A stretch of 39,847 nucleotides of DNA from an uncultured Gammaproteobacteria bacterium. GTDB lineage: Bacteria > Pseudomonadota > Gammaproteobacteria > SZUA-140. The stretch spans positions 1 to 39,847 of the forward strand of contig CALZHD010000006.1 in NCBI GenBank assembly GCA_945787155.1, read 5' to 3'. Position 1 is the first letter of the stretch. Each line of letters opens with the position of its first letter. Position numbers and translations under genes: made by a program. The notes under the pieces are model-generated. The model saw only the letters and a list, made by a program, of their open reading frames with translations, had not been told where the DNA came from and did no database searches. Positions 778-38,958 of the stretch are shown here, piece by piece.

Positions 778-1590
778 ATGTTCAGCGCAATCGCAAAGTT
801 TTTCTCAGGTGGATCATCAGAGCCCAAACAGGCCAGCCTCTATGAGCGCATTGGCGGTGATGCCGCCGTCAACGCCGCGGTCGATATTTTTTATCGCAAG
901 GTTCTCGCAGATGATCGCATCAACAAATTCTTTGAAGGCATCGATATGGACAAACAGTCTGCCAAACAGAAGGCGTTCCTCACCATGGCATTTGGCGGCC
1001 CAAATAACTACACCGGCGAAGACATGCGTAAAGGCCATGCCCATCTGGTAGAACAGGGGCTCAACGACAGTCACTTCGATGCAGTAATGGAAAACCTTGG
1101 TGCTACCCTGACCGAACTGGGCGTCCCTGGCGAGTTGATCGCAGAAGCCGCCGCCATCGCAGAGAGTACACGTGCTGACGTACTGGCCGGTTTCACTGCG
1201 GAAGAAAAGACTGCACTGGCAAACAAGGCATCACTCTATGAACGTATTGGCGGCGAGGCAGCCGTCAACGCGGCAGTTGATATCTTTTATCGCAAGGTTC
1301 TCGCAGATGATCGTATCAATAAATTCTTTGAAGGCGTAGATATGGAACAGCAGGCTGCCAAGCAGAAGGCGTTTCTCACCATGGCATTCGGTGGCCCACA
1401 CAACTACACCGGTGAAGATATGCGCAAAGGTCATGCACATCTGGTAAAACAGGGACTCAACGACAGTCACTTCGATGCAGTGATGGAGAATCTTGGTGCG
1501 ACATTGACTGAACTGAATGTCCCAGCAGAGTTAATCGGCGAAGCTGCGGCCATTGCCGAGAGCACACGCAACGACGTATTAGGTCGCTAA
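778..1590 (+). CDS. Tandem two-domain group I truncated haemoglobin
   Basis: A single 270-residue chain carries two complete truncated haemoglobin (TrHb1/GlbN) domains, near residues 20-137 and 152-269, after an 18-residue hydrophobic/basic N-terminus and joined by a short linker (about 138-151). By alignment with remembered cyanobacterial GlbN, the proximal F8 histidines are H87 and H219 (context MRKGH). The B10 tyrosines are Y39 and Y171, and the E7 glutamines Q60 and Q192. Position E10 is lysine (K63, K195) where Synechocystis GlbN has the haem-coordinating histidine. Single-domain members are about 120 residues. Known family roles are O2 binding, NO dioxygenation and peroxide or nitrogen-oxide handling; which applies here cannot be read from sequence. 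The gene is monocistronic, with its own promoter, an excellent ribosome-binding site (CGGAGG, 9 nt before ATG) and a strong terminator. Confidence 0.93.
   Translation: MFSAIAKFFSGGSSEPKQASLYERIGGDAAVNAAVDIFYRKVLADDRINKFFEGIDMDKQSAKQKAFLTMAFGGPNNYTGEDMRKGHAHLVEQGLNDSHFDAVMENLGATLTELGVPGELIAEAAAIAESTRADVLAGFTAEEKTALANKASLYERIGGEAAVNAAVDIFYRKVLADDRINKFFEGVDMEQQAAKQKAFLTMAFGGPHNYTGEDMRKGHAHLVKQGLNDSHFDAVMENLGATLTELNVPAELIGEAAAIAESTRNDVLGR
835..1584 (+). repeat. Internal coding duplication (two ~354-nt copies)
   Basis: The DNA for haemoglobin domain 1 (835-1188) and domain 2 (1231-1584) is repeated in direct orientation at an offset of 396 nt. The two encoded domains differ at about 13 of 118 residues. 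Long exact nucleotide stretches remain (for example around 898-918 and 1294-1314), so the duplication is recent or kept uniform by gene conversion. Confidence 0.9.
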
Positions 1591-3460: not shown

Positions 3461-3539
3461 ACACTCACAGGCGCGTCGCCGCACTGCTTTAGGACCTGAT
3501 ATAATGCTGTTTTTTGCCGCCAAATATGCTGACTGACCG

Positions 3540-4178
3540 ATGACCAATACAGCAACATCCGAGCAATGCACCAACATCACCGTCAACGGCACCGGACTCG
3601 CAGTTTCACCCGGCCACTCATTAATACAAGCGCTGTGGAAGACAGGCCACCCGCTCTTTAAGCGAGCGAGCTGTCTTGAAGGCGTCTGCGGTTCATGCCG
3701 TGTCATGGTGCGCTATGCTGATGAACCCGAGGTCAAGATGGCGCTGGCATGTCAGACCAAAGTTGAAAGTGGGATGCAGGTAGTCTTCCCACAACACCTT
3801 GAGCGACAGTCCGCAGCGTTGCAAACTCACCGCTATCAACTTCAGTCATCGATACCCGCTGATCAACACTTGCACGAAGTTTTTCCAGAGACAGCTCACT
3901 GCCGTCACTGCCATGGCTGCACGGTCGCCTGTCCCAAAGGGATTGATGTTGAAAAAGGGATCACGCTTGCGAATGATAATGAACTTACCGCAGCCGGTGA
4001 CCTTTTCGTCAACTGCGTGATGTGCGATCTTTGCGTCACCAGCTGCCCTGAAGATATTGCCCCCAATTATGTGGCGCTGTTTGCCCGCCGCACCACCGCC
4101 TTTAACAAACCACTACCCGGCAATCTCGCAGCGCGCTTACAGGCACTGCAACGCGGTGAACTGAAGATTGAGTATTAA
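3540..4178 (+). CDS. SdhB/FrdB-like iron-sulfur subunit of a putative soluble NADH:fumarate oxidoreductase
   Basis: Electron-transfer protein of 212 residues, shorter than typical SdhB/FrdB. An N-terminal plant-type ferredoxin domain has [2Fe-2S] ligands C45, C50, C53 and C71. A C-terminal helical domain has two full CxxCxxCxxxCP sets: C121/C124/C127/C131 and C159/C162/C165/C169. In canonical SdhB/FrdB the last cluster is usually [3Fe-4S], with one cysteine missing from the motif. Here all four are present, as in HdrC/TfrB-like proteins, so two [4Fe-4S] clusters are expected. No membrane segment or quinone-anchor gene is nearby. The stop is separated by 1 nt from the ATG of the flavoprotein gene, which suggests translational coupling. 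Its likely job is to carry electrons between the NuoF-like and FAD subunits; this is inference from gene order. Confidence 0.85.
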   Translation: MTNTATSEQCTNITVNGTGLAVSPGHSLIQALWKTGHPLFKRASCLEGVCGSCRVMVRYADEPEVKMALACQTKVESGMQVVFPQHLERQSAALQTHRYQLQSSIPADQHLHEVFPETAHCRHCHGCTVACPKGIDVEKGITLANDNELTAAGDLFVNCVMCDLCVTSCPEDIAPNYVALFARRTTAFNKPLPGNLAARLQALQRGELKIEY

Positions 4179-4179
4179 C

Positions 4180-5775
4180 ATGGCCAACGACGGCACCCCA
4201 TTGGATAAAGCACGACAGGCGTATCGAATCGAGCTGCCTCGACCACAACGGCCATCGGTAGAAGACCCCCAGGCACTTCTCCACGCCTATCATCCCGATT
4301 ACGCCAGCGACAGTCGCGTCACATTGAAAGTGGGTGTTAACCGCAACGATCCTTGTCACCCGCAACTGGCAGCGTTGTTACAGTCCGACTCATCAAGCAA
4401 CGATCAGCTATTAGCAAATGCTAATCATATCGAGACCGACGTGCTTGTCATCGGTTCCGGTGGCGCCGGCTGCGCGGCGGCATTGATCGCGGCAGAAAAT
4501 AGTGCGGAGGTATTGATCGCCACCAAGACGCGCCTGGGTGACAGTAACACCGTCATGGCCGAAGGGGGTATCCAGGCCTCGATCAACCCCAACGATACGC
4601 CACAGGCACATTTTGAAGAGACCCTTCAGGCGGGGCACCATGCCGGCAATAAACGACTGGTCGAACAGATGGTACTGGATGGCCCAGATGTCATCCGCTG
4701 GCTGATCCAGCAGGGGATGCAGTTTGACGTTGATCAGCAGGGCAACCTCTGCACCCGTCGCGCTGGCGGTACCTCGGCAGACCGTGTGCTCTACTATCGC
4801 GACTATACCGGTCTTGAGATGATGCGCGTACTGCGCGAGGCGGTGCGTAACCACCCTCATATCAACACAGCTGATAACAGCCCCGCCGTTGAACTCTTAT
4901 CCAATGAAGCGGGGCACTGCGGTGGCGCGCTGCTCTATTCCATCGACCGACAACAGTACACCGTGGTCAAGGCAAAGTCGGTCGTCCTTGCCAGCGGTGG
5001 ACTTGGACGCATGCACCTCAACGGTTTTCCTACCTCCAACCATGTCGGAGCCACTGGAGATGGACTGGTGCTAGCCTACCGACTCGGTGCAAAACTACAA
5101 ACGTTAGACTCATTCCAGTACCATCCGACAGGGCTTGCGTGGCCACAAACGTTAGCAGGCACATTGATCACCGAAGGGATACGCTCTGCCGGTGCCCAGC
5201 TAGTGAATAGCCGTGGCGAACGTTTTATCGATGAACTCGCGCCGCGCGATGTTGTGTCAGCGGCAATCATCCGCGAATGCAGTGAAGGGCGCGGCATACG
5301 GCTCGCCAGCGGTCGGCAGGGAGTGTGGCTCGACACCCCCGCGCTGGAACAGCAACAGCCCGGAATGCTTGCACAGCGGTTTCCGAAATTCCTCAATCTG
5401 TGCGATAAAGCTGGCATTAATCCTCATCATGCGCCACTGCTGATCTGTCCCACCCTGCATTACCAGAATGGTGGAGTGGTGATTAATGAGCATTGCGAGA
5501 CGACGATTCCAGGGCTCTATTGCGCTGGCGAGGTGAGTGGTGGCATCCACGGTAAGAATCGCATCATGGGTAATGCCCTGCTGGAGATCATCAGTTTTGG
5601 TCGACGTGCAGGTGCTGCGGCCGCCGCGTCGCATCCCCTGCCACATAGTCGTGAGTTAACGCTTGCTCACCTGAAAAGATTTCGCCGCGAGATAGCAAAC
5701 AGCGGCCTTGCCAGCGATCAATCAGGACCACTGCTCTTTCCCCACTATGCCAACTTCACCAGGGGGGCAATGTGA
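4180..5775 (+). CDS. Fumarate reductase/succinate dehydrogenase-like flavoprotein subunit
   Basis: FAD-binding subunit of 531 residues from ATG 4180; an in-frame TTG at 4168 could add four residues. After an unusual N-terminal extension of about 85 residues comes the Rossmann motif VIGSGGAG near residue 90. All four catalytic residues of the family are present: H315 (YHPTG), R356 (LAPRD), H427 (LHYQNGG) and R461 (HGKNRIMGN). The position that carries the FAD-linked histidine in membrane SdhA/FrdA is asparagine (N123, SNTVMAEGG), so FAD should be non-covalent. The glutamate that marks aspartate oxidase (TREGGHS) is replaced by alanine (A195, RAGGTS), which argues against aspartate as substrate. 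The C-terminal helical domain is shorter than in SdhA. It overlaps the NuoF-like gene by 4 nt. Fumarate reduction is the best guess; another dicarboxylate is possible. Confidence 0.85.
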   Translation: MANDGTPLDKARQAYRIELPRPQRPSVEDPQALLHAYHPDYASDSRVTLKVGVNRNDPCHPQLAALLQSDSSSNDQLLANANHIETDVLVIGSGGAGCAAALIAAENSAEVLIATKTRLGDSNTVMAEGGIQASINPNDTPQAHFEETLQAGHHAGNKRLVEQMVLDGPDVIRWLIQQGMQFDVDQQGNLCTRRAGGTSADRVLYYRDYTGLEMMRVLREAVRNHPHINTADNSPAVELLSNEAGHCGGALLYSIDRQQYTVVKAKSVVLASGGLGRMHLNGFPTSNHVGATGDGLVLAYRLGAKLQTLDSFQYHPTGLAWPQTLAGTLITEGIRSAGAQLVNSRGERFIDELAPRDVVSAAIIRECSEGRGIRLASGRQGVWLDTPALEQQQPGMLAQRFPKFLNLCDKAGINPHHAPLLICPTLHYQNGGVVINEHCETTIPGLYCAGEVSGGIHGKNRIMGNALLEIISFGRRAGAAAAASHPLPHSRELTLAHLKRFRREIANSGLASDQSGPLLFPHYANFTRGAM

Positions 5776-7022
5776 CCGCAGCACTACTTAACCAGTTGCT
5801 GCGTCACCCCGACAACTGCTGCACGCAGCTCAATGACTGGTTGACGGGCCGCGGCGGAAAGGGACTCGAGATTGCACTGCGCGATCCTGCCGCGCTCATC
5901 CCTACCATCAAGGCAGCAGGCTTGCGTGGCCTTGGCGGCAGCGGTTTTCCTGCCTGGCGCAAATGGGAGATGATCGCTGCACAAACCGAAAGCGGTGACC
6001 GTTATCTCATTTGTAATGGCAACGAAGATGAGCCGGGTACCTTCAAAGATCGCCTGCTGCTGGAAGAATCGCCTCATCAAATCATCGAAGGGGCGCTGAT
6101 CACCGCACTGGCCTGCGGCATCAACCGCGTTATTTTCTATATCAATCCGCACCTGAAGCGTGCTTTCGAAACATTGTCTGAGGCGATTATACAGTGGCAA
6201 CAGAGTGACTATTCTCAACAGATTAATCAGGTACTGGGCACAACACTGGAATTAAAGCTCATTCCCAGCCCCGGTCACTATATCGCTGGCGAAGAGACCG
6301 CCGCAATTGAGGCGGTCGAAGGCAATTTCCCCTTCCCACGTGGCAAACCACCCTACCCTGCAGTGGCGGGCGTTCACAACAGACCCACACTGGTGAATAA
6401 CATTGAAACACTGGCCAATGTTGCGCACATCATCCGCAAGGGTGCTGCATGGTTTCAGCGACTCGGCGAAAATAATAACAGCGGCACCAAGATCTATTGT
6501 GTCAGTGGCGATGTGACAGCCGTGGGCGCCTATGAACTACCGATGGGCACCACACTGTCGTCACTGCTTTTTCAGTATGCAGGTGGCATCATCGATAATC
6601 GAAAATTGAAGGCGGTGTTTACCGGCGGGCCATCCAACTCAATCTTGACCGCCGATGAACTAGACGTTGCACTCGACTTTGACTCCATGAAACAACATCA
6701 GGCAGCACTTGGCACAGGGGCGATGATCGTCATTGCTGAAGGGAACCCTATCATTCCTCATGTTGCAAAATATCTCGACTTCTTTGCTAACGCATCATGT
6801 GGGCAGTGCCCACCCTGCACCAGTGGCACACAAGATATGGCACAACTCACCAGAAAAATCGCAGCGGGTGAAGGTCGTCCAGATGATCTGGAGTTATTGA
6901 TCAGTCTCAGCGAGATGCTACCTGGCAGTGGCCGCTGTCATCTCATTGATGGTGCCATCACGGTGCTAAAGAGTTCACTGCAACACTTCCAGCCAGAATA
7001 CCGACGGGCGCTGATCAAATAA
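5772..7022 (+). CDS. NuoF-like NADH-binding FMN/[4Fe-4S] subunit
   Basis: Homologue of the 51-kDa NADH dehydrogenase subunit, 416 residues. The FMN/NADH motifs are GLRGLGGSGFPAWRKW (50-65), CNGNEDEPGTFKDR (81-94) and the glycine-rich PGHYIAGEETA (167-177). The [4Fe-4S] ligands match cluster N3: C343, C346, C349 (SCGQCPPC) and C389. It starts at GTG 5772 with AGGGGGG upstream and overlaps the preceding stop by 4 nt. There is no NuoE (thioredoxin-like [2Fe-2S]) domain or gene, and no NuoG or other complex I subunits, so it is not part of a nuo operon. NADH would reduce FMN, and electrons would pass through N3 to the iron-sulfur subunit encoded two genes upstream. The NADH-oxidising role is inferred from motifs. 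NADPH, or the reverse direction, cannot be excluded. Confidence 0.87.
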   Translation: MTAALLNQLLRHPDNCCTQLNDWLTGRGGKGLEIALRDPAALIPTIKAAGLRGLGGSGFPAWRKWEMIAAQTESGDRYLICNGNEDEPGTFKDRLLLEESPHQIIEGALITALACGINRVIFYINPHLKRAFETLSEAIIQWQQSDYSQQINQVLGTTLELKLIPSPGHYIAGEETAAIEAVEGNFPFPRGKPPYPAVAGVHNRPTLVNNIETLANVAHIIRKGAAWFQRLGENNNSGTKIYCVSGDVTAVGAYELPMGTTLSSLLFQYAGGIIDNRKLKAVFTGGPSNSILTADELDVALDFDSMKQHQAALGTGAMIVIAEGNPIIPHVAKYLDFFANASCGQCPPCTSGTQDMAQLTRKIAAGEGRPDDLELLISLSEMLPGSGRCHLIDGAITVLKSSLQHFQPEYRRALIK

Positions 7023-18912: not shown

Positions 18913-19947
18913 TTAACATGCCGTCACTTTGCTATATTGTTTGAGCAGTGTCGCCCCGATGCAATCTAATGGTAAAACTTTCACTGCAGCATTTAGCGCT
19001 ACTGCCGCCTTCGGCATCCCATATACAGCACAACTCTTTTCATCCTGCGCGATGGTAAACACGCCTTTCTGACGCAACGATAACAGTCCAGCAGCACCAT
19101 CACGCCCCATTCCTGTCAACAATGCCGCCGTCACGTCTCCGCCCCAGTGCGCTGCAACACTCTCAAAGAAGACGTCTACAGAAGGGCGGTATACTACTTC
19201 TTTTGGGTCTGAAGTATATGCCAAACTTCCCCTGGGGGACATCACAAGGTGATCATTGGTCGATGCAACCTGAACGATACCAGGCGATACACACTCACCC
19301 TCTTCTGCAACTTTAACCTGTAAATTGCATTGAGTATTAAGCCACGCAGCTAAATCACAGGAAAAATGCGCATCGATATGCTGAATAATAACCACGCCTG
19401 CAGGAAAGTCTGAGGGAAGTTCAGCTAATATTTTAGCCAATGCCGGCGGCCCTCCAGTAGATGAGCCTATCGCCACTAACGACTGATGCTTATGTAAAAC
19501 CGAATACGAAGGTTGCGACTGCAGTTTTTCTACATGACGCGATGGAATAGGTCTGGTTAATTTCTCTATCGTCTTGATTTTATCTAATAGTGCAATATTA
19601 TCCTTAACATCCTCAGCCCCCCTCAATACGGGAGTTTTCACCACATCCAGTGCGCCAGCGCCCATCGCCTCAAACACCATTGCACTGTTACCTGTGACTG
19701 AGCTTGTGACGATCAAAATCGGGCACGGCGTCGCAGCCATAATTCGACGGGTCGCTTCAATTCCATTCAATATCGGCATAACCAGATCCATCAAAATCAG
19801 ATCAGGAAGATCATGCTGACATCGCTTTACCGCCTCTTCGCCATTCACAGCCACCCATGCCAGCTCATGATCAGTCGCCGTCACCAGCAAGCGCCTCAAA
19901 CCCTCAACAGCCATCATCGTGTCATTAACGATCGCTATCCTCATCAT
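18913..19947 (-). CDS. wspF: CheB-like methylesterase WspF
   Basis: Receptor methylesterase/deamidase with receiver domain, 344 residues. Receiver domain about 1-125 with D54 (LILMDLVMP); catalytic CheB domain about 155-340 with the serine in GSSTGGPPAL (S163), the histidine in IIQHIDAHF (H190) and the aspartate in TGMGRDGAAGL. In Pseudomonas, loss of WspF locks Wsp signalling on. It overlaps the wspE stop by 4 nt (ATGA), which suggests coupled translation. ATG-ATG doublet at the start leaves a one-codon ambiguity. Confidence 0.95.
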   Translation of the reverse strand: MMRIAIVNDTMMAVEGLRRLLVTATDHELAWVAVNGEEAVKRCQHDLPDLILMDLVMPILNGIEATRRIMAATPCPILIVTSSVTGNSAMVFEAMGAGALDVVKTPVLRGAEDVKDNIALLDKIKTIEKLTRPIPSRHVEKLQSQPSYSVLHKHQSLVAIGSSTGGPPALAKILAELPSDFPAGVVIIQHIDAHFSCDLAAWLNTQCNLQVKVAEEGECVSPGIVQVASTNDHLVMSPRGSLAYTSDPKEVVYRPSVDVFFESVAAHWGGDVTAALLTGMGRDGAAGLLSLRQKGVFTIAQDEKSCAVYGMPKAAVALNAAVKVLPLDCIGATLLKQYSKVTAC

Positions 19948-22295
19948 GCCTCTCCAATCAAATCTATCACAGCTTCACGCAATGCCTCATCATGAAAGCA
20001 GCCCTTAGTCAGGTAATAATCCGCGCCAGCTTCAAGCCCAAGTAGCTTATCCTCTTCACGGTCCTTGTAAGAAACCACCATAACAGGCATATTACGCAAT
20101 GCATCATCCTGTTTCATCATACGCACCAGCTCAATGCCGTTCATCCTCGGCATATCAATATCAGTAATGACCAGGCGATAGTCACCACTGCGTACAGCAT
20201 TCCAGCCATCCATACCATCAACCGCAACATCTACCTCATAACCATAGGCCTCCAGCATTTTGCGCTCGACCTCTCGTACAGTAATTGAATCATCAACTAC
20301 CAGCACCCGTTTACTGATACCTTCATCAGCGGCATTTTCTCCACTTACCTTATCAATTCGACCTTTTGAAATTAACTTGGAAATCGAGCGCGCCATATCA
20401 TCCACATCAATAATCAATGTCGGCGAACCATCATCAAGTAATGCAGCTACGCTGACATCTTTTACCTTGCCCAGACGTGGATCAATTACCTGAACCGCCA
20501 GCTCACGCTCACCTAGAAAAGCATCAACAATCACACCATATTGACCATGCCTATCGCTAAGAATGACCACGAACAACTGCTCTCTCTTTGCAGTAGATTG
20601 CTCAGTACCAAACACCTGAGAGGCTGAAACCAGACCGATATGGCGATTATTCCACGTAATATATTGATGATCTTCAACGACTTCAATCTGATCATCTTCG
20701 ATCTTAAGCAAATGATCGATTCGTGCCAAAGGAAAGGCATAGCACTCACCCCCGATATCGACCAATAGCGTTCTGATTACCGACAAGGTCAACGGTAACT
20801 GCATCTGAAAGCAGGTGCCCTGACCTGCTTTAGATGTAATCGTCACCACCCCTCGCATCTCCTTAACCGCGTCGTGAACAACATCGAGGCCAACACCACG
20901 CCCGGATATCTCAGTCACTTCACTGCGAGTACTAAAACTCGGTAGAAAAAGAAATTCCAGCAATTCCATATCACTCATTTGCGCCAATATCTCTTCACTA
21001 CTCAAGCCACGCTCAATAATTTTCTGCTTAAGCGTTTCAAGATCAACACCACGCCCATCATCCTCTACCGTCACTACCAGCATTCCCGAACGGTGACGAG
21101 CATCAAGCTTTACAATCGCCTGAGAGGGCTTGTCATTTCCAGTACGAACGTCTGGCATTTCAATACCGTGATCTACAGCATTTCGCAATAAGTGATTGAG
21201 CGGAGCCTTCACCATTTCTAACACATCGCGATCAACCTGGGTGGTCACTCCGGTAATCTCAAGCCTGGCATCTTTGCCCAGCGAACGTGCGACATCGCGC
21301 ACCATGCGCTGAAAACCATCTACACCATCAGAAAAAGGGCGCATTCGGCTTGCCAACACTTCACGATGCAGCCTGCCTGCAAGATTCCCCGTACGGTAAT
21401 CAAAATGCTCAAGATCAACAAGACGATCCGATAGCGCTTCACGCTGCTTCACTGCTTTTCGTTGCAACTCCATTAATGCAGTTTCCACTACAGGCTCAAT
21501 GCCTGTTGCATTAAACTTTTCACGCAAGTTATCAAGATCACTCACCAGGTCAAAATGAAAACGCTTAAAACGTTGCATCGCCTCTATGTGTGGATGTAAC
21601 CAACGAGCCTCAACCATCGCCTCTCCTGCCAATCCAAGCAACTTATCCATACGCTCAGTACTGACACGTAATACGCGCTCTTTTACTTCCGCCAATGAGG
21701 CCGCTTTATTCGGCGGGGTTTCTGCTGCCAGGCTATTCACTGCAGACTTCTCAGATACAATCGGAGAAGAAGCATCCTGCCGCATACCAGAGACAGGTGC
21801 TGACGCCTCATCATCAACGCTATCTTTAATCACTCCAGACTCATCTCCAGTGACAGCAGGCTTCACTACCACCGCTGCTTGTGATCTCTCACCAGTTAGT
21901 ATCCCTTCAATGGCCAACACCAGTGAATCAAGCGCTGTTTGGTTCAACTCAACCCATGATGAAAGGTCTGATTCGTCTAGTTTTGATACTTGCCCCATCA
22001 TATCGACGCCATTCAACAACACATCAATATCAACACTAATAAATTCCAGCTCACTTTTCTGAGCCGCAACAAAACAGTCCTCCATCACATGAGCCACTCG
22101 TACTACCGGATCAATATCCACCATCCGCGCAGCGCCTTTAATCGAATGAGAGGCACGCATCATCGATTCAAGATTTTCCGTAGAAGATGGATTTTGCTCC
22201 AACACAAGCAGGCCATCAGTCAGCAACGACAGCTGCCCTTCGGCCTCCGTTCGGAAGAGGTCCAACATTGAGAAGCCACTCAGATCGTCACTCAT
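19944..22295 (-). CDS. wspE: CheA-receiver hybrid histidine kinase WspE
   Basis: Central kinase of the Wsp pathway, 783 residues. The N-terminal Hpt domain has phosphorylatable H50 (ASHSIKGAAR). After a variable linker rich in Ser/Ala/Val come dimerisation and HATPase regions with LLRNAVDHGIEM, VEDDGRGVD and ISGRGVGLDVV. A CheW-like regulatory domain follows (about 505-640). A C-terminal receiver (about 660-780) has phospho-acceptor D712 (LVITDIDMPRMNG). The fused receiver, and the absence of any cheY in the cluster, are Wsp hallmarks. It phosphorylates WspR and WspF. It overlaps wspD and wspF by 4 nt each. Confidence 0.96.
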   Translation of the reverse strand: MSDDLSGFSMLDLFRTEAEGQLSLLTDGLLVLEQNPSSTENLESMMRASHSIKGAARMVDIDPVVRVAHVMEDCFVAAQKSELEFISVDIDVLLNGVDMMGQVSKLDESDLSSWVELNQTALDSLVLAIEGILTGERSQAAVVVKPAVTGDESGVIKDSVDDEASAPVSGMRQDASSPIVSEKSAVNSLAAETPPNKAASLAEVKERVLRVSTERMDKLLGLAGEAMVEARWLHPHIEAMQRFKRFHFDLVSDLDNLREKFNATGIEPVVETALMELQRKAVKQREALSDRLVDLEHFDYRTGNLAGRLHREVLASRMRPFSDGVDGFQRMVRDVARSLGKDARLEITGVTTQVDRDVLEMVKAPLNHLLRNAVDHGIEMPDVRTGNDKPSQAIVKLDARHRSGMLVVTVEDDGRGVDLETLKQKIIERGLSSEEILAQMSDMELLEFLFLPSFSTRSEVTEISGRGVGLDVVHDAVKEMRGVVTITSKAGQGTCFQMQLPLTLSVIRTLLVDIGGECYAFPLARIDHLLKIEDDQIEVVEDHQYITWNNRHIGLVSASQVFGTEQSTAKREQLFVVILSDRHGQYGVIVDAFLGERELAVQVIDPRLGKVKDVSVAALLDDGSPTLIIDVDDMARSISKLISKGRIDKVSGENAADEGISKRVLVVDDSITVREVERKMLEAYGYEVDVAVDGMDGWNAVRSGDYRLVITDIDMPRMNGIELVRMMKQDDALRNMPVMVVSYKDREEDKLLGLEAGADYYLTKGCFHDEALREAVIDLIGEA

Positions 22296-22987
22296 ACAAG
22301 AGCTCTCCGCAGCGAGTTAAACAACAACTCCTGATCTAATAGCCCAACATGCCGTTCATCAAGTTCAAATAATCCAGCAAGGTGCGAATACATCGAATTA
22401 GCAGCCGTGGCGGGTACATCTCGAATACTATCTTTCCAAATACGGTGTGTACCGATAATTTCACTCACCGGAAATACAAACTGCTCGCTATCTTTTTCAA
22501 TAATCACCAACCGCTCAAGAAAGCTTTTTCGCAATTCGTCAAAATCAAATTTCTCTCCCTTATCAACTGAAAGCAGTGTTCCCACTGACATCCATAACTT
22601 AAGCTCACCTCTGACATTCACTATCCCTTTAGTCACCGCACTCTTAGAATTTGGAATGCCATGCACTGGGCGTATCTCAGATATTTCATTGATAATCTTT
22701 GTTGGTAACCCAAGCCACTCATCACCAAGCCTGAACACCACTATTGACAGTGATTCATTACTCTTTTCGACCTTCTCCTTAGCCAGTAATGTTGTCCAGG
22801 ATTCCTGATAATCTAGCGGAATCGCGCGCGTCAGCAGGCTACGTCCAGCGCTCGAATACACATCGCAGTTACGGCAATGCAATACGTCTTTAAGACGAGG
22901 GCATTTTTCACCACCTTTACTCCAGACACCAATGGTTGACCAACAATTGTCTATCTGTTCATCCATAAAAACACCTACACCAGACAT
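22292..22987 (-). CDS. wspD: CheW-like coupling protein WspD
   Basis: Scaffold linking receptor and WspE, 231 residues, longer than a plain CheW. The CheW domain covers about 75-225. The N-terminus has a four-cysteine region, C15, C29, C38 and C41 (the last pair in HCRNCDVY), as I recall from WspD homologues. It could bind metal or form disulfides; function unknown. A second start, ATG 22966, would remove seven residues and has an AGGTG upstream, so the start is open. The stop overlaps wspE by 4 nt. Confidence 0.93.
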   Translation of the reverse strand: MSGVGVFMDEQIDNCWSTIGVWSKGGEKCPRLKDVLHCRNCDVYSSAGRSLLTRAIPLDYQESWTTLLAKEKVEKSNESLSIVVFRLGDEWLGLPTKIINEISEIRPVHGIPNSKSAVTKGIVNVRGELKLWMSVGTLLSVDKGEKFDFDELRKSFLERLVIIEKDSEQFVFPVSEIIGTHRIWKDSIRDVPATAANSMYSHLAGLFELDERHVGLLDQELLFNSLRRALV

Positions 22988-22990
22988 TCA

Positions 22991-24268
22991 TTACTGCCTC
23001 GCCCGCTCGGCACGCCGCCTAAGGCTAAGTGCCTCATCAACACTACCATTACGCTCAACATGCAACGCAAGATGAACCAGAGCCTCTGTGTGACTGGGGA
23101 CTAAATAGATGGCCTTTCTGAACATCGACTCAGCCATGCCAGATCTATTTGTCGCCTCATACACCACGCCCAATAAATAGAATGCGTCCGCACTACTAAA
23201 GCGCGCAAGCGCCTGTTGACAAATTTCTTCCGCCTCCTCAAGAGAGCCCTCATCTGCTAATCGACGCGCCTTTGAAACAAGCACATGCTCATCAAGCTCA
23301 TCATCAAATTTATTACGTACCAAATAAGCAGAAAATGGCTTACTATCAACAACGTCTGTTCCGCTCACTAAACTCAAGCTGGGAGTTTTATTCTCAACAG
23401 AAGGTATTGCACTATATTTTTTAGAAAATTCAGCAATCTTTTCATCATAACCACTAGATTCAGTAACATCTAATTCGCATTTTTTAACAAAGGCAAAGGA
23501 ACCACGCATGCGCAATGATCTGAATAAGTGATTAACATTATTATTCGCTTCTGCATGTCCTACAAACAACACTCCATCGGACGCCAACAGATCATAAAGT
23601 TTACTCACTGCCAACTGCTGATCATGATTATCAAAATAGATCAGTAAATTACGGCAAAAAATCACATCATAACCACCTTTCATCTCTGAAAAGTTATCCC
23701 TTAGTAAATTACCTTGTCGAAAGTTCACACGTTTTCTGATACGACTCTTCAACCGATAGCCATCAGCAATCTTTGTAAAATAAGCATCGCGAAATGAAAG
23801 ATCCATGCTACGAAAAGAGTTTTCTCGGTAAACACCCTTCTTTGCCTTATCAAGTGAATGCTGACTAATATCAACGGCATCAATCTGCACACGTGCAACA
23901 GGAAAATTTATTTTATCCAGCGCCATAGCAATGGTGTACGGTTCTTCACCAGTAGAGCAGGGTATGCTCAAAATTCTAAATGTGCGCGCACTATTCTCAG
24001 GCATTAACCAGTTACTATTTATATTGCTAGTTAATACATCGAATGGAACATCATCCCTGAAAAACCAGGTCTCAGGAACTACAACCGCCTCAACCAGGCG
24101 TTTTAACTCATCTTCCGAAGCTAGCAAAACCTGATAATAGTGATCTACATCTTTGAAACTTGAATCCTTTAAACAACGTTTAATGGCATTTTGAATAGAT
24201 GCCTCGCCAACCGTATTGACATCAAGCCCGATTTTTTCTTTTAGCAATGTTTCTATTTTCTTGCACAT
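22991..24268 (-). CDS. wspC: CheR methyltransferase with TPR domain, WspC
   Basis: S-adenosylmethionine-dependent receptor glutamate methyltransferase fused to tetratricopeptide repeats, 425 residues. The CheR part shows VVPETWFFRD, LSIPCSTGEEPYTIAMAL (SAM site) and VIFCRNLLIYFD. After a low-complexity linker (about 275-330), TPR-like helices occupy about 340-420 (EAEEICQQALARFS, AFYLLGVVYEATNR, AESMFRKAIYLVPSHTEAL). I chose ATG 24268, which forms TGATG with the wspB stop like the wspA-wspB junction; an upstream in-frame start at 24310 would overlap wspB by 43 nt. Adaptation partner of WspF. Confidence 0.94.
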   Translation of the reverse strand: MCKKIETLLKEKIGLDVNTVGEASIQNAIKRCLKDSSFKDVDHYYQVLLASEDELKRLVEAVVVPETWFFRDDVPFDVLTSNINSNWLMPENSARTFRILSIPCSTGEEPYTIAMALDKINFPVARVQIDAVDISQHSLDKAKKGVYRENSFRSMDLSFRDAYFTKIADGYRLKSRIRKRVNFRQGNLLRDNFSEMKGGYDVIFCRNLLIYFDNHDQQLAVSKLYDLLASDGVLFVGHAEANNNVNHLFRSLRMRGSFAFVKKCELDVTESSGYDEKIAEFSKKYSAIPSVENKTPSLSLVSGTDVVDSKPFSAYLVRNKFDDELDEHVLVSKARRLADEGSLEEAEEICQQALARFSSADAFYLLGVVYEATNRSGMAESMFRKAIYLVPSHTEALVHLALHVERNGSVDEALSLRRRAERARQ

Positions 24269-24735
24269 CACTTGTCCATTACAGCTGGGCTGCCATAAAG
24301 AAGGTCGCAATCACGCCTAGATAGCAGGCAATCTATATCCATCCACTGAATTACACCTTGAGCATCAGTCATAATATTTGACACATAACTCTCTTCAGAG
24401 GACTTTAATACTGATTGATGAAAACGACTCAGTTCAAGCTCAATCGTTTCGGTCGCATATTCAGCGATTATTCCAAGTATGTGCTCATGCCCAGCATACC
24501 CTGTATAATTAACCAAAAAAATCCGCGTACTCATGACCTGCTCTGAAGAGACCCCATTAAGCAAATATCGTATATCAACCACGGGTACAGGCACTGCACG
24601 ATAGTTACATAATCCTGCTATATAATCGGGTGCTTTCGAGAAGTTACTCAACTTAACCAACGGCACAACCTCAACTATTTTTTTAGCATCGACCACATAA
24701 CGATCTTCACCAACATGGAAGAGAACAAAAAGCAT
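24268..24735 (-). CDS. wspB: CheW-like coupling protein WspB
   Basis: Coupling protein of 155 residues formed essentially of one CheW domain: FVLFHVGEDRYVVDAKKIVE, then APDYIAGLCNYRAVPVPVVDIRYLL in the classic place. It links receptor to WspE; Wsp systems use two CheW proteins (WspB and WspD). Its start shares a base with the wspA stop and its stop shares a base with the wspC start (both TGATG), so translation is probably coupled through the operon. Confidence 0.94.
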   Translation of the reverse strand: MLFVLFHVGEDRYVVDAKKIVEVVPLVKLSNFSKAPDYIAGLCNYRAVPVPVVDIRYLLNGVSSEQVMSTRIFLVNYTGYAGHEHILGIIAEYATETIELELSRFHQSVLKSSEESYVSNIMTDAQGVIQWMDIDCLLSRRDCDLLYGSPAVMDK

Positions 24736-26768
24736 CAGGAATCAATCTTGAACTGTGATACGCCACCCTGAAGTCCATGAGCAGCATCATTCAAACGGTC
24801 AATTGCACTATTAGACTGGCGCAGTGACTCTACCGTCTGTTGTGATGATTCACTTAGCTGAATCATTGCGTGCTTGATCTGCTCAGCACCTTCAGATTGC
24901 ATATGCATTCCTTCATGCACAATCTCAAAACGAGGCGTTAATGTCTGCACTTGATCAATAATCTGCGCAAGCTGCGCCCCAACCTGACGCACATCTTCAA
25001 CACTATTTTTCACCTCGTTCGAAAATTTCTCAACACTCATCACACCTGCAGATACGGCTGACTGCATCTCTTGAACCATTTGTTCAATGTCAAGCGTGGC
25101 TACCGCAGTCTGGTCAGCCAGACGTCGAATCTCGGTCGCTACTACGGCAAAGCCGACACCGTATTCGCCCGCTTTTTCTGCCTCAATAGCTGCATTCAGT
25201 GACAACAAATTGGTTTGGTCGGCAACCTTTGTAATAGTGGTAACAACCGAATTAATGTTACCCGCCTTTTCGCTCAACACTTCAAGCTTTGATGCGATCG
25301 AATTCGACGCATCAACCACTGAGTGCATCGTGTTCTCCATACTTACGAGTCCGGTATGCCCATTTGCCGCAGCTTCAGCAGTACCCGATGCCACTCCAGC
25401 CACCTCATCCATTGTATTGACCAGCTCTTTTCCTGTCGCAGAGATTTCGGTCGCCGTCGCCACAATTTCATTAACAGTGGCAGCCTGCTCCGCTACCGTT
25501 GCCTCTTGCTGTTTCGCCGAAGCGGCTATTTCAGTTGAAGAAGATGTCACTTGTATGCCTGATTGCTGAACCTGTGAAACAAGCCCATTTAGACTACTAA
25601 TCATCGCCTGAATACCTTTCGCCATTCTGCCGACGGCATCATCACCGCTAATATTAATTTCTCCAGTAAGATCACCAGCGGCGGCTCGTTGCACCACTTC
25701 CTGCACCAGACCAACTTTTTCCTCGAGATCTTCCATTGCAGTACGACGCTCTTCCATTAGCTCACTCAAATTACGAACCATGGATTGCAAACCTGATCCG
25801 AGTGAACCAATCGCATCATCACCATTAAAGTTAACAACACCAGTCAGGTCACCCTGTGCAGTTCGATTCACCACATCAAGCAATATGTTGACCTTATCTT
25901 TAAGTGCTTCAGCGGCCTCATGCTCGCGCTGTGCTTGTATTTTTTCCTGCTGACTCGCTTTATCAACATTGTCAGCCATCGTATTCAGTGCCGAACCAAG
26001 CTTACCAATCTCATCCTGTGTAGTTAGATCTACACGTACTGAGGTATCACCAGCGGCCCGCCGATTAACCGTATCCATAACACGTCTTAGCGGCTTGGAA
26101 AGCCACCTACTCAACAAAAAATTTGCCAGCAATAGCCCTATTACCAACAAAGTAATATTCGCTAAAATCTGAGTCTGCACATCTTGAGCTATCACTTCAT
26201 CCTGATGCTTCAGTGAATAGCTGACACGAATGGCGCCATTAACAGAATTTTCAGGCACATTATGACAAGCCAGACAATTCACATCCCCCGGTTCTTTCGC
26301 TGATGTCGCACGGAAAGGTGTCAAGACGGTAATCACACGCCCTTCAACACCCTTGCCAACATCCTTCCCCTGCTGTAGTTCTATAATTTTTTCACCCTGA
26401 AGTGCACGCATATCCCACTCATCAACAGGGGCCTCTTCTGGAAAACCTGGGCCATACTGCTGATTAACTGGCTCCCCACGAATCACTCTTGCATCCACAA
26501 CATTATTACGTTTAAGAATTTTATTTCGCAGGATACTGCGCTGATCCATGGTGTTGGTTAACATCATGGTATTGAGGCTATCGAAATAGAATGTGGCTAA
26601 ATCCTGCGCGCGTTCCTCAGCATCATCATGAGCACGCTGCTTCTCTAAATAAACCGTATAACCAGTCACCATGCTGATTACAAAAACAAAGATGGTGGCA
26701 ACGGTCAGATTGATCTTCACCCGAACGGACAGATGACCAAACAACGAACCACTCTCTTGCGACACCAT
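24735..26768 (-). CDS. wspA: WspA-type methyl-accepting chemoreceptor with periplasmic c-type haem motif
   Basis: Membrane receptor of the Wsp system, 677 residues. Membrane helix about 19-40; periplasmic domain about 41-200; second helix about 201-219; HAMP about 221-270. Two further HAMP-like units contain QGDLTG (305-310) and AGDLTG (364-369). The MCP signalling domain follows (about 400-677), with the hairpin tip near ITKVADQTNLLSLNAAIEAE (512-531). The periplasmic domain holds C165-L-A-C168-H169, a covalent haem c attachment motif, just before a beta-rich end (GAIRVSYSLKH). Pseudomonas WspA, a surface-contact sensor, has no such motif to my knowledge. A Tll0287/DUF3365-like haem sensor domain is possible. 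No C-terminal pentapeptide for CheR is seen. GAGGG lies upstream of ATG 26768. Confidence 0.93.
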   Translation of the reverse strand: MVSQESGSLFGHLSVRVKINLTVATIFVFVISMVTGYTVYLEKQRAHDDAEERAQDLATFYFDSLNTMMLTNTMDQRSILRNKILKRNNVVDARVIRGEPVNQQYGPGFPEEAPVDEWDMRALQGEKIIELQQGKDVGKGVEGRVITVLTPFRATSAKEPGDVNCLACHNVPENSVNGAIRVSYSLKHQDEVIAQDVQTQILANITLLVIGLLLANFLLSRWLSKPLRRVMDTVNRRAAGDTSVRVDLTTQDEIGKLGSALNTMADNVDKASQQEKIQAQREHEAAEALKDKVNILLDVVNRTAQGDLTGVVNFNGDDAIGSLGSGLQSMVRNLSELMEERRTAMEDLEEKVGLVQEVVQRAAAGDLTGEINISGDDAVGRMAKGIQAMISSLNGLVSQVQQSGIQVTSSSTEIAASAKQQEATVAEQAATVNEIVATATEISATGKELVNTMDEVAGVASGTAEAAANGHTGLVSMENTMHSVVDASNSIASKLEVLSEKAGNINSVVTTITKVADQTNLLSLNAAIEAEKAGEYGVGFAVVATEIRRLADQTAVATLDIEQMVQEMQSAVSAGVMSVEKFSNEVKNSVEDVRQVGAQLAQIIDQVQTLTPRFEIVHEGMHMQSEGAEQIKHAMIQLSESSQQTVESLRQSNSAIDRLNDAAHGLQGGVSQFKIDS

Positions 26769-29547: not shown

Positions 29548-30639
29548 ATGAACACTCGCAATCAAAATTACCTTTTACCTTTCCTGCTCATCTCATTGCT
29601 AGCCATTATTGCAGTTTTTTTTCTGAAAGCTAAACAGGATGAAACTGGCAAAGCGACATTTAAGTTAAGCTGGCAAAATGCAACCCCTTTTATTGTGCCT
29701 CGGCGCGCCCTGGCTGCTGTCGCATATAATAATTATCTCTATGTACTCGGCGGTATCGACGCCCACAACCGCTACGTGCACACCGTTGAATACACAAAAA
29801 TCCATCCTGATGGCGATTTGAGCCAATGGCAAAAAACGACTGACCTGAATGAGGGACGTTTCTATCTAGCCGCAGCGGCGGTCAATGGTTATCTATATGC
29901 AATCGGTGGCGCCAGAGGGGCACTGGGAGAAAATAACATCCCGGTTGCGACTGTTGAAAAAGCAAAAATTAATCCCGACGGATCACTTGGTATCTGGGAA
30001 CGGGAACAGGCGCTCACCACGCCGCGTCGAGCCCTTACCGTCAATCAACGAAATAATCAGATTTATGCACTGGGTGGATATAATGGTATATTTTTACATT
30101 CGATTGAGCACACCTCAGTTAACGCTGATGGAACGCTCGATGAGTGGCAACTCGCTCCCGAGCAATCTAAAGTGGATCGCTATATCCATTCTTCGGCGAT
30201 TTCCAATGACAAGTTGTACCTGCTTGCTGGTCATATGAAAAACGGTCAGACGGTCAGTTATGGCGATGTTGAGTTAAGCAGGCTATCAACCAATGGCGGA
30301 CTCTCACCCTGGCAGATCGAAAATACAACCCTGCTCACGCCACGCTTCATCGCCACCGCATTTTCGTTAGGGGATTATGTCTACATTGCTGCCGGTCATG
30401 ACGGGGCGAGAAGACTCAGTAGCGTCGAATACGCCCCGCTAGACAGAGAGGGGCATGTCGGAAACTGGCGACTCACTGCTCCGTTAGGAGTACCAAGAAG
30501 TGGCACTACCGCAGTGACCTATAATAAAAGGGTTTATGTACTAGGAGGGATTAGCCAAAATAGCGTGCTAAACAGCGTCGAAATAGCTACTCAGGCAGCC
30601 GATGGGAATTTGGGGCACTTCTCAAACATCACTCACTGA
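29548..30639 (+). CDS. Membrane-anchored Kelch-repeat beta-propeller protein
   Basis: Protein of 363 residues. One N-terminal membrane helix (about 8-26) is followed by a soluble domain of six repeats of roughly 50 residues. Each repeat has a YVLGG-type strand (YLYVLGGID, YLYAIGGAR, QIYALGGYN, KLYLLAGHM, YVYIAAGHD, RVYVLGGIS) and then a DG.L..W turn. This predicts a six-bladed beta-propeller, exported and anchored to the inner membrane. No catalytic residue or Cys ligand is evident, so a binding or scaffolding role is likelier than an enzyme. It is divergent from nudF and ends 8 nt before a convergent small gene. Confidence 0.85.
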   Translation: MNTRNQNYLLPFLLISLLAIIAVFFLKAKQDETGKATFKLSWQNATPFIVPRRALAAVAYNNYLYVLGGIDAHNRYVHTVEYTKIHPDGDLSQWQKTTDLNEGRFYLAAAAVNGYLYAIGGARGALGENNIPVATVEKAKINPDGSLGIWEREQALTTPRRALTVNQRNNQIYALGGYNGIFLHSIEHTSVNADGTLDEWQLAPEQSKVDRYIHSSAISNDKLYLLAGHMKNGQTVSYGDVELSRLSTNGGLSPWQIENTTLLTPRFIATAFSLGDYVYIAAGHDGARRLSSVEYAPLDREGHVGNWRLTAPLGVPRSGTTAVTYNKRVYVLGGISQNSVLNSVEIATQAADGNLGHFSNITH

Positions 30640-36213: not shown

Positions 36214-38958
36214 ATGTTACCGCAGAAAATGGGCATTAAATCAAGCCATCAGCTTCCCGAACCGCCATCCGCACCACAGTCACTTGCGGCACAGGACGTG
36301 ATTGATCGCTTGCACTCGTCGCCACATGGACTCACCCTTGATGAGGTAAACAAAAGGCAGAAACATTTCGGCATCAATACACTGCCTCACCCGCCCCCTC
36401 CAGGCATAGTCAATATATTTTTTCGTCAGTTTCTCAGCCCACTCGTCTATATCCTCTGCCTCGCGGTGCTCGTCTCACTGCTGATTGGCGAGTGGACCGA
36501 CGCCAGCTTTATCACTATCGTTTTATTGATCAACGCCATCATCGGCACCGCGCAGGAATATTCGGCGCAACACAACGCCGAGGCACTAAGTGCGCTCGTC
36601 ACTACCTATACTCATGTGGTGCGTGAAGGAGAGAGTTTTGAGATCAATGCTGAAGCGCTGGTGCCCGGCGATATCGTTCTATTAGAGAGTGGCAGCAAAG
36701 TACCCGCCGATATCCGCCTGATCACCACGCAAGGACTTGCTGTCGACGAATCACTACTGACCGGTGAATCAACGCCCGTGAATAAAGATGCGTTGCGGCT
36801 AGCCTCTACCAGGAACGCATTAAGTGAATGCCCCAATATGATTTTTGCTGGCACCCATGTCACCTACGGGCGCGCGACTGGCATCGTCACAGCCATAGGC
36901 CTAAAGAGTGAACTCGGACAGCTTGCCGATGCAATCCTCGGCACAAAAAAAACCGACTCGCCATTGCAACAGCGAATGGAAAATCTGGTCTTTCGCATCG
37001 GCATTGCGGTCGCTATTGCCGCACTCATCGTTGCCGCCATCACCCTGGCACGCAGTCTGTCCCTGCACGAAGTCTTTATTCTCGTCGTGGCACTCGCAGT
37101 TGGCGCAATCCCTGAAGGGCTACCGGTGGCAATCACGGTAGCGCTCGCCATCGGCATGAGTCGCATGGCCAAACGTAATGTCATTGTGCGCCGCCTGATC
37201 GCGGTTGAGTCACTCGGCTCCTGCACCTTTATCGCATCAGACAAGACCGGCACACTGACCCTCAACGAACTCACGGCACGTTATTTCAGCCTGCCCGGCA
37301 ACGCACTGTTTGAGTTCTCTGGCCAGGGCGTCATTCCGGATGGAACCGTCACACTACGCAAGGGCAACCCACACCTCGCTCATTCTAGCCATTTAAAAAA
37401 TGCCGCGTTGGCGGCTGCCCTCTGTAACGAGGGTTTTCTGGCGCAACGCGCGGGTAGCTGGACACAACACGGCGATACCGTCGACGTTGCACTGCTGGTG
37501 ATGGCACACAAACTCGGCATCACCCAGCCTGAGGCCAACAACAACTACTCGACGATTGCACAGATCCCATTCGAGCCAGAGCACCGCTTTGCCGCTACCC
37601 TGCATCAGCAGACGGGTGAGGCGTCGAATATTATCTTTGTTAAAGGGGCGACCGAGCGCATCATCAAGATGTGTCACCACATGCTTTCCAACGATGGCCG
37701 TGTCGCCCTCAATCAAGAAATTGTCGAAGAGTCGATGCTGAATCTCGCATCGGATGGCCATCGTGTATTGGCACTTGCAATGGGCAATTCCGAACTGGAT
37801 GAAGATGACTTCGCCGAAGCACATCTCGAGGGACTGACATTGATTGGACTGGTGGCGATGGCTGACCCACTACGCGCAGAGAGCCGCAGCGCACTCGACG
37901 CCTGTCGCAATGCCGGGATCGAGGCCGCAATGATTACGGGCGATCATCCCGCCACCGCGTTATCGATTGCGCGTGAACTGAACCTCGCCCAGACCATTGA
38001 CGACGTCATCAGTGGTACACAACTTAAACAGATCGCCACCGATGATCATGCCACCATTGACGCCATCACTCGCCGGCATCGCATCTTTGCGCGCATCGAA
38101 CCCCAACAGAAATTGCAACTGGTCGAATCACTGAAGCGCAATGGTCACTTTGTCGCCGTCACCGGCGATGGTGCCAACGATGGCCCTGCCATGCAAGCAG
38201 CCCACGTCGGTGTCGCCATGGGCAAAAAAGGCACCGATGTAGCCCGCGAAAGTGCCGACATCATCCTCTCAGATGACAACTTCAACTCAATCGTTGCGGG
38301 TGTCGAAGAGGGGCGTGTCATCTACAATAATATCCGCAAGGTGATCTTTCTGCTGCTCTCCACCGGTGCTGCCGAGGTGGTACTCTTCATGCTAGCGTTG
38401 ATCAGCGGCCTGCCGCTGCCACTGCTGGCGGTACAACTGCTGTGGCTCAACCTCGCCACCAACGGCATCCAGGATGTCGCTCTCGCCTTTGAACCCAGAG
38501 AAGGTGACGAGATGAAGCACTCACCACGCCCACCGAAAGAACCGATCTTCAATCGTATAATGATTGAACGCATCATCGTCTCAGCACTACTGGTTGGCAG
38601 CCTCGCCTTTGCCACCTTCAGCGTTCTGCTATCAAATGGCTTTTCAGTAGATGAAGCACGCAATGCGACACTGTTACTGATGGTGCTGTTTGAGAATGTC
38701 CATGTCTTTAACTGCCGCTCCGAAACCCGCTCGGCATTGACCCACAATCCGCTGCGTAACCCACTGCTGCTGTTTGGCACACTGGCGGCACAACTGATCC
38801 ATATCGGTGCGATGTACACCCCCATCATGCAGGAGACCCTGCATATCCAACCAATCTCGTTTGAAAACTGGTTGAAACTTCTCGGCATAGCATTGATACT
38901 GCTGTTCGTCATGGAAGCGCACAAACTGACATACAAGCTCAGAATAAAAACAGGGTAA
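36214..38958 (+). CDS. P2-type cation-transporting ATPase (Ca2+-ATPase-like)
   Basis: Ion pump of 914 residues. Cytoplasmic N-terminus with the cation-ATPase N motif (HSSPHGLTLDEVNKRQKHFG). Actuator motif TGES near 184; PEGLP in M4 near 299; phosphorylation motif DKTGTLT near 343; hinge TGDGANDGPAM near 650; ten membrane helices in total are expected. The M6 segment NLATNGIQDVALAFEP differs from SERCA-type NLVTDGLPA, and M5 keeps a glutamate (TGAAEVVLF), so the transported ion (Ca2+, Mg2+, Na+ or other) is uncertain. It starts at ATG 36214; ATG 36229 is an alternative, and neither has a strong ribosome-binding site. nadC follows after 39 nt. Confidence 0.9.
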   Translation: MLPQKMGIKSSHQLPEPPSAPQSLAAQDVIDRLHSSPHGLTLDEVNKRQKHFGINTLPHPPPPGIVNIFFRQFLSPLVYILCLAVLVSLLIGEWTDASFITIVLLINAIIGTAQEYSAQHNAEALSALVTTYTHVVREGESFEINAEALVPGDIVLLESGSKVPADIRLITTQGLAVDESLLTGESTPVNKDALRLASTRNALSECPNMIFAGTHVTYGRATGIVTAIGLKSELGQLADAILGTKKTDSPLQQRMENLVFRIGIAVAIAALIVAAITLARSLSLHEVFILVVALAVGAIPEGLPVAITVALAIGMSRMAKRNVIVRRLIAVESLGSCTFIASDKTGTLTLNELTARYFSLPGNALFEFSGQGVIPDGTVTLRKGNPHLAHSSHLKNAALAAALCNEGFLAQRAGSWTQHGDTVDVALLVMAHKLGITQPEANNNYSTIAQIPFEPEHRFAATLHQQTGEASNIIFVKGATERIIKMCHHMLSNDGRVALNQEIVEESMLNLASDGHRVLALAMGNSELDEDDFAEAHLEGLTLIGLVAMADPLRAESRSALDACRNAGIEAAMITGDHPATALSIARELNLAQTIDDVISGTQLKQIATDDHATIDAITRRHRIFARIEPQQKLQLVESLKRNGHFVAVTGDGANDGPAMQAAHVGVAMGKKGTDVARESADIILSDDNFNSIVAGVEEGRVIYNNIRKVIFLLLSTGAAEVVLFMLALISGLPLPLLAVQLLWLNLATNGIQDVALAFEPREGDEMKHSPRPPKEPIFNRIMIERIIVSALLVGSLAFATFSVLLSNGFSVDEARNATLLLMVLFENVHVFNCRSETRSALTHNPLRNPLLLFGTLAAQLIHIGAMYTPIMQETLHIQPISFENWLKLLGIALILLFVMEAHKLTYKLRIKTG

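Follow-up and report, generated by a model that had tools for sequence, protein, structure and literature searches.

Organization of the B-A-F locus

The question raised by this locus is which enzyme is encoded by three genes lying directly behind nadB in contig CALZHD010000006.1 (assembly GCA_945787155.1) of an uncultured gammaproteobacterium of the GTDB lineage SZUA-140. The stretch analyzed, hereafter the window, comprises 39,847 nucleotides, and the three genes, here called B (iron-sulfur subunit), A (flavoprotein) and F (NuoF-like subunit), occupy positions 3540-7022. Judging from the sequences, B-A-F is probably a soluble, practically irreversible reductase of fumarate that uses reduced nicotinamide adenine dinucleotide (NADH).

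An earlier note on this DNA had described abutting or overlapping iron-sulfur, FrdA-like and NuoF-like genes and had seen no membrane anchor, NuoE or NuoG. Open reading frames (ORFs), Pfam domains and ligand motifs confirmed the first of these claims, and hydropathy and Pfam bore out the second. The genes abut head to tail on the plus strand, on which all motifs given below also lie. Gene B (3540-4178) encodes 212 amino acids with Fer2_4 and Fer4_9 domains. Gene A (4168-5775) encodes a FrdA/NadB-type flavoprotein (FAD_binding_2, E 7e-81) of 535 amino acids when read from TTG 4168, the codon from which its residues are numbered here. Gene B ends with TAA and an ATG follows one base further on, at 4180; this ATG, giving 531 amino acids, is likelier to be the start of A than the listed TTG. 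Gene F (5772-7022) encodes a NuoF-like subunit for flavin mononucleotide (FMN) and NADH of 416 amino acids, with Complex1_51K (E 1e-41) and NADH_4Fe-4S (E 6e-23) domains and PDB matches to HydB and NuoF, and its GTG start overlaps the TGA of A as GTGA. Pfam detected no NuoE or NuoG domain in F and no NuoE or NuoG gene beside it. None of the three products has a transmembrane segment, their maximal 19-residue hydropathy being 1.4-1.7, against 2.5-2.8 by the same measure in two membrane proteins encoded nearby. No ORF for a membrane anchor such as that of complex II was found within B-A-F, and the membrane protein encoded 3' of F is BPSS1780-like. The scores of B, A and F all fall well under the NCBI cut-offs for named enzymes, and an automated annotation would therefore describe them only vaguely.

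Conservation of cofactor ligands and active-site residues

The residues of A were placed through PDB alignments to E. coli FrdA (3p4p) and NadB (1chu); its sequence matches in the PDB were succinate dehydrogenase (SDH), NadB and FrdA. Aligned to the 3p4p motifs, the fumarate-site residues of A are H319, T335/E336, R360, H431 and R465 (5122-5562). His319, Glu336, Arg360, His431 and Arg465, which in FrdA are known to bind the substrate and carry out catalysis, are invariant in all 90 usable A sequences, and residue 335 is Thr or Ser. A FrdA-type Glu (E132, at the position of FrdA Glu49, which is Gln in SdhA) occurs in 85 of the 90. The position of the His that binds flavin adenine dinucleotide (FAD) covalently in complex II is Asn (Asn127) in 89/90. 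A covalent bond to FAD shifts its potential upward by about 100 mV, and the oxidation of succinate depends on this bond (PMC10238741). An AlphaFold2 model of A, with a mean predicted local distance difference test (pLDDT) score of 88, matched fumarate reductases best, with flavocytochrome c fumarate reductase (Z 38-39), quinol:fumarate reductase (QFR; 37) and soluble Osm1 (35) ranking ahead of L-aspartate oxidase (34), Z differences below 1 being counted as ties. Pfam found no usual Succ_DH_flav_C domain in A. Residues 1-86 (window 4168-4425) form a conserved N-terminal extension of about 85 residues with an HPDY...GxN motif, which is missing from the aligned NadB and is possibly a docking segment.

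Subunit B carries a plant-type [2Fe-2S] motif (C45, C50, C53 and C71; 3672-3752) and two full CxxCxxCxxxCP sets for [4Fe-4S] clusters (C121-C131, 3900-3932, and C159-C169, 4014-4046), and all 12 ligand cysteines are invariant wherever aligned. The best Foldseek match of its whole AlphaFold2 model (pLDDT 86) was SdhB/FrdB. When the fold was compared by parts, residues 10-87 matched the [2Fe-2S] domain of NuoG/HydA and residues 105-212 matched HdrC, these two ranking about equal. The NuoG/HydA domain takes electrons from NuoF/HydB in those complexes. On the predicted model, F may dock on B at the [2Fe-2S] end or at the dicluster end.

In F, the FMN/NADH-binding segment (5928-6053) contains GLGGSGFP...KW and NGNEDEPGTFKDR, with N82 and N84-D93 invariant in 69/69 sequences. 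It is followed by a GEET motif (6288-6299; E174 in 69/69, E175 in 68/69) and by the ligands of an N3-type [4Fe-4S] cluster, C343, C346, C349 and C389 (6798-6938), invariant where aligned. The stretch NEDEPGTFKD is likewise invariant wherever aligned. Complex I and hydrogenase homologues carry NADE-type sequences where the F group has NGNEDEPG, which is, at the sequence level, a useful signature of this group. That F is a plain complex I NuoF was rejected, as it scores below the cut-off of the NuoF equivalog (378.7 against 558.65 bits) and the genome has a separate NuoF-like gene of canonical type (39% identity) at another place.

Distribution and gene order

The GTDB genomes were scanned with an alignment of A, and the best 80 loci, picked by A alone, together with plasmid and genus loci gave the 90 A sequences used throughout. 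The neighborhood search for SdhB-like/SdhA-like/NuoF-like triplets proposed in the earlier note found B-A-F linked in the same order and strand in 67 of these 90 loci, nearly all of them picked by A alone. B and F lie mostly within 60 bases of A, with median gaps of 8 and -4 nucleotides. Among the remaining 23 loci, two have F but a contig end hides B, 18 have B without F, and in three A stands apart. The objection that homologues might prove unlinked thus failed for 67 loci and held for those last three genomes, which are Beggiatoaceae-like and have an F orthologue elsewhere (57-59% identity), with no B detected beside it. The loci fall in several clades and are not independent draws, so the counts are given without a P value, but the 67 linked loci led us to reject chance gene order. 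No natural B-A or A-F fusion protein was present among the loci.

The complete set occurs in Pseudomonadota, Chloroflexota, Myxococcota and Actinomycetota, including Cupriavidus, Paraburkholderia, Pseudomonas, Neisseria, Roseomonas, Gallionella, Nitrotoga, Sedimenticola, a tubeworm (Escarpia) endosymbiont, Chloroploca, one myxobacterial and one acidimicrobial genome. The 18 loci with B-A and no F belong to Nitrospirota, Bacillota and Ilyobacter, and on the A tree the split between F-bearing and F-less sequences needs only two changes. In Nitrospirota and Leptospirillum (loci L082-L102) B-A is followed by sucCD, and several of these loci have two B copies. In Ilyobacter and Clostridia (L014, L098, L100 and L103) HdrABC-MvhD-type genes precede B-A; in the clostridial loci FumC lies further out, and Mdh is found in L098 and L103. 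From this gene context, the Hdr-linked B-A pairs are predicted to be Hdr-driven soluble fumarate reductases. The A-B core is best read as accepting different electron-input modules, NuoF-like here and Hdr/MvhD-like in anaerobes.

Metabolic neighbors of the triplet

Neighboring genes were called by targeted tblastn with Pfam checks. KorAB is linked to B-A-F in 13 loci. In Gallionella-type genomes KorA and KorB, in that order, stand directly ahead of B, A and F, in two cases with aconitase and a monomeric isocitrate dehydrogenase before them, and in Sedimenticola-like and tubeworm-symbiont genomes KorA and KorB follow B, A and F. A dicarboxylate transporter of the DASS/CitT or DctA type lies within about 5 kb in 20 loci, fumarase adjoins B-A-F in four Neisseria, and Mdh or SucCD is present in some other loci. 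The informative neighbors are thus metabolic neighbors of fumarate and succinate, and of the independent evidence on the substrate they are the strongest part. Directly after B-A-F-KorAB, the Sedimenticola-like and tubeworm-symbiont loci encode an 824-amino-acid protein with no Pfam match (L040:16011-18485 and four homologues).

Proposed function and alternatives

We propose that B, A and F would assemble as a soluble heterotrimer or higher-order complex. F would bind FMN and NADH, rather than NADPH, and split the hydride into single electrons; these would leave F by its N3 cluster, cross the three clusters of B and reach the FAD that A would bind non-covalently, where fumarate would be reduced to succinate. 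In this direction the enzyme would feed the reductive branch of the tricarboxylic acid (TCA) cycle or re-oxidize NADH at the expense of fumarate when oxygen is short. The path from NADH over FMN, the N3 and ferredoxin-type clusters and FAD to fumarate had been drawn in the earlier note from motifs; its ligands and site residues proved invariant in 67-90 homologues, and the folds of A and the neighboring genes are also consistent with it.

Several points weigh against a fumarate reductase of this kind. The overall sequence similarity of B to FrdB is only weak, PDB sequence searches returned no solved B-A-F complex, and closely related dicarboxylates may be the substrate. The source genome, 94.6% complete, encodes classical SDH, 2-oxoglutarate dehydrogenase and RuBisCO, and KorA was not found in it, so that the need for B-A-F is not evident there and a role in the reductive TCA cycle is not claimed for the source organism. 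B-A-F probably helps here to balance redox or to supply succinate at low oxygen, in an autotroph whose oxidative SDH is a different enzyme.

Among the other explanations, we hold it unlikely that B-A-F uses NADH to reduce some other C4 dicarboxylate, unsaturated or oxo (for example mesaconate, itaconate or another fumarate analogue), imported by the linked transporters, with fumarate as a side substrate. The transporter-linked copies of the heterotrophs Pseudomonas, Cupriavidus, Paraburkholderia and Roseomonas, where no reductive TCA genes adjoin, would fit this explanation, but the FrdA-site residues are invariant in the transporter-linked and the reductive TCA-linked groups alike, and the fumarase of the Neisseria loci speaks for fumarate itself.

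It appears decidedly improbable that the three genes form a minimal electron-bifurcating trimer, in which the drop from NADH to fumarate would drive ferredoxin reduction for the adjacent 2-oxoglutarate:ferredoxin oxidoreductase; if so, two reductive TCA steps would be energetically coupled. The KorAB linkage in 13 loci points this way, as do the bifurcating HydB and NfnB subunits among the PDB relatives of F, the HydA/NuoG-like N-terminal domain of B and the Hdr-MvhD module of the F-less sister group. However, F has 416 amino acids and a single, N3-type cluster set, compared to 584-630 amino acids in the bifurcating homologues listed, no NuoE/HydC-like gene accompanies it as in HydABC or NfnABC, and most triplets have no adjoining ferredoxin enzyme.

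The opposite direction, that of a succinate dehydrogenase linked to NAD+, deserves very little credence. The genus does have an oxidative TCA cycle, but with textbook potentials of +30 mV for fumarate/succinate and -320 mV for NAD+/NADH the reaction would be strongly uphill, the covalent-FAD His is absent and a classical SDH is present.

Relation to nadB and a candidate promoter

The description of the cassette as lying directly behind nadB was correct for its position, although in this genus only. The order in the genus is nadB-B-A-F followed by genes for a BPSS1780-type membrane protein, SirB and DsbC, with A at 75-79% identity in the related genomes; two more members show nadB-B-A at 86-87%, their contigs stopping inside A. 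Thus, nadB-B-A is syntenic in every genus copy covered by a contig and F comes next wherever the contig goes on. In the scanned loci outside the genus nadB was not found beside the triplet.

An extended -10-like element, CTGATATAAT (3496-3505), is a candidate promoter of B-A-F. Its sequence CTGATATAMT is near-identical in the seven aligned genus loci (7/7), whereas most of the nadB-B intergenic sequence has drifted, which argues for a separate promoter. A consensus promoter scan did not list the element, there being no -35 match. As far as sequence conservation indicates, B-A-F probably has its own promoter, rather than being transcribed only as the end of the nadB message. As nadB adjoins only in this genus and the conserved promoter-like element is separate, we rejected nadB as a functional partner.

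That A is an L-aspartate dehydrogenase or an iminosuccinate-related enzyme, a back-up of nadB in NAD synthesis, is scarcely credible despite its position behind nadB throughout the genus and its 33-35% identity to NadB, given the element and the triplets with no adjoining nadB just described and the three grounds on which A was also rejected as a NadB paralogue: NadB Glu121, which contacts the amino group of aspartate, is replaced in the A family (A199 here; Ala, Pro, Gly or Val, never Glu), A reaches 340 bits with the NCBI nadB model against a cut-off of 453 for L-aspartate oxidase, and an intact nadB is present.

Comparison with known systems

The earlier note knew of no characterized enzyme of exactly this composition. 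Our literature and PDB searches agree, and searches of open-licence papers turned up no description of a NuoF-type trimer; soluble NADH-dependent fumarate reductases of another composition are already known. The enzyme of Hydrogenobacter thermophilus (Miura et al. 2008, J Bacteriol 190:7170) is said to consist of five subunits encoded by scattered genes. It resembles the proposed B-A-F enzyme in being soluble and in passing electrons from NADH to fumarate, and its five subunits, FrdABCDE, set it apart, by description only, from the three genes found here. Passages in PMC12743299 and PMC10521678 cite it as a soluble NADH-dependent fumarate reductase with a role in the reductive TCA cycle. Its Aquifex counterparts are FrdA-E with 'nox' and 'dmsB2' subunits (PMC10052474), which by this description take the place of a NuoF-like subunit.

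A second related system is the 'tfrAB' fumarate reductase of the reductive TCA clusters of tubeworm symbionts and Thioflavicoccus, located next to flxABCD-hdrABC (PMC6315080, PMC11636981). It is described, like B-A, as a putative soluble FrdA/FrdB-type pair, and the two possibly share one broad A-B family; it differs from B-A-F in its flxABCD-hdrABC association, no NuoF-like partner being mentioned in the text. In our set, the Hdr-linked relatives from Ilyobacter and Clostridia group with the F-less A sequences. For Leptospirillum, frdAB figures in the reductive TCA literature and its authors proposed an amphipathic anchor (PMC2607301). The thiol:fumarate reductase TfrAB of methanogens is likewise a soluble pair of a FrdA-like and an iron-sulfur subunit and is the top NCBIfam match of A, but A reaches 347 bits against the TfrA cut-off of 718 and B 34.5 against 385 for TfrB, and Pfam found no CCG/HdrB-type domain, a feature of TfrB, in the 212 residues of B. 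Complex II (QFR/SDH) shares with B-A the catalytic site and an iron-sulfur partner with an SdhB/FrdB-like fold. Unlike complex II, B-A-F has no membrane anchor and no covalent-FAD His, has a NuoF-like partner, and both dicluster sites of B are full [4Fe-4S] motifs.

In extracts of Pelotomaculum thermopropionicum with SDH2/FrdAB, NADH:fumarate activity was 35.7 mU/mg in the soluble fraction compared to 5.7; its authors, who lack the NADH subunit, include Complex1_51K proteins in their list of candidates for it (PMC10308238). The mostly soluble activity, seen in crude fractions, resembles by description what we propose for B-A-F, although the partner clustered with SDH2/FrdAB is coenzyme-F420-hydrogenase-like and that of B-A NuoF-like. 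The question raised for Pelotomaculum (PMC10308238), which subunit passes NADH electrons to soluble fumarate reductases, becomes testable now. If our proposal is right, a widespread, near-irreversible fumarate-reducing step would be added to the central metabolism of sulfur-, iron- and nitrite-oxidizing autotrophs and of many heterotrophs, in whose genomes annotation usually goes no further than quinone-linked enzymes or 'tfrAB'. A core of A and B that takes interchangeable input modules (NuoF-like, Hdr-MvhD-like and others) would show clearly how redox enzymes evolve by modules, and an anchor-free soluble NADH:fumarate reductase in a single operon could help succinate production.

Other genes of the window

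Upstream of nadB, a 270-amino-acid protein (window 778-1590) has two tandem truncated-hemoglobin domains, about 90% identical over 118 residues, and this gene is kept upstream of nadB in the genus. Elsewhere, the window carries chemotaxis genes for a CheA-type kinase, CheR and a methyl-accepting chemotaxis protein (19944-26768), a gene for a Kelch-repeat protein (29548-30639) and one for a cation P-type ATPase (36214-38958).

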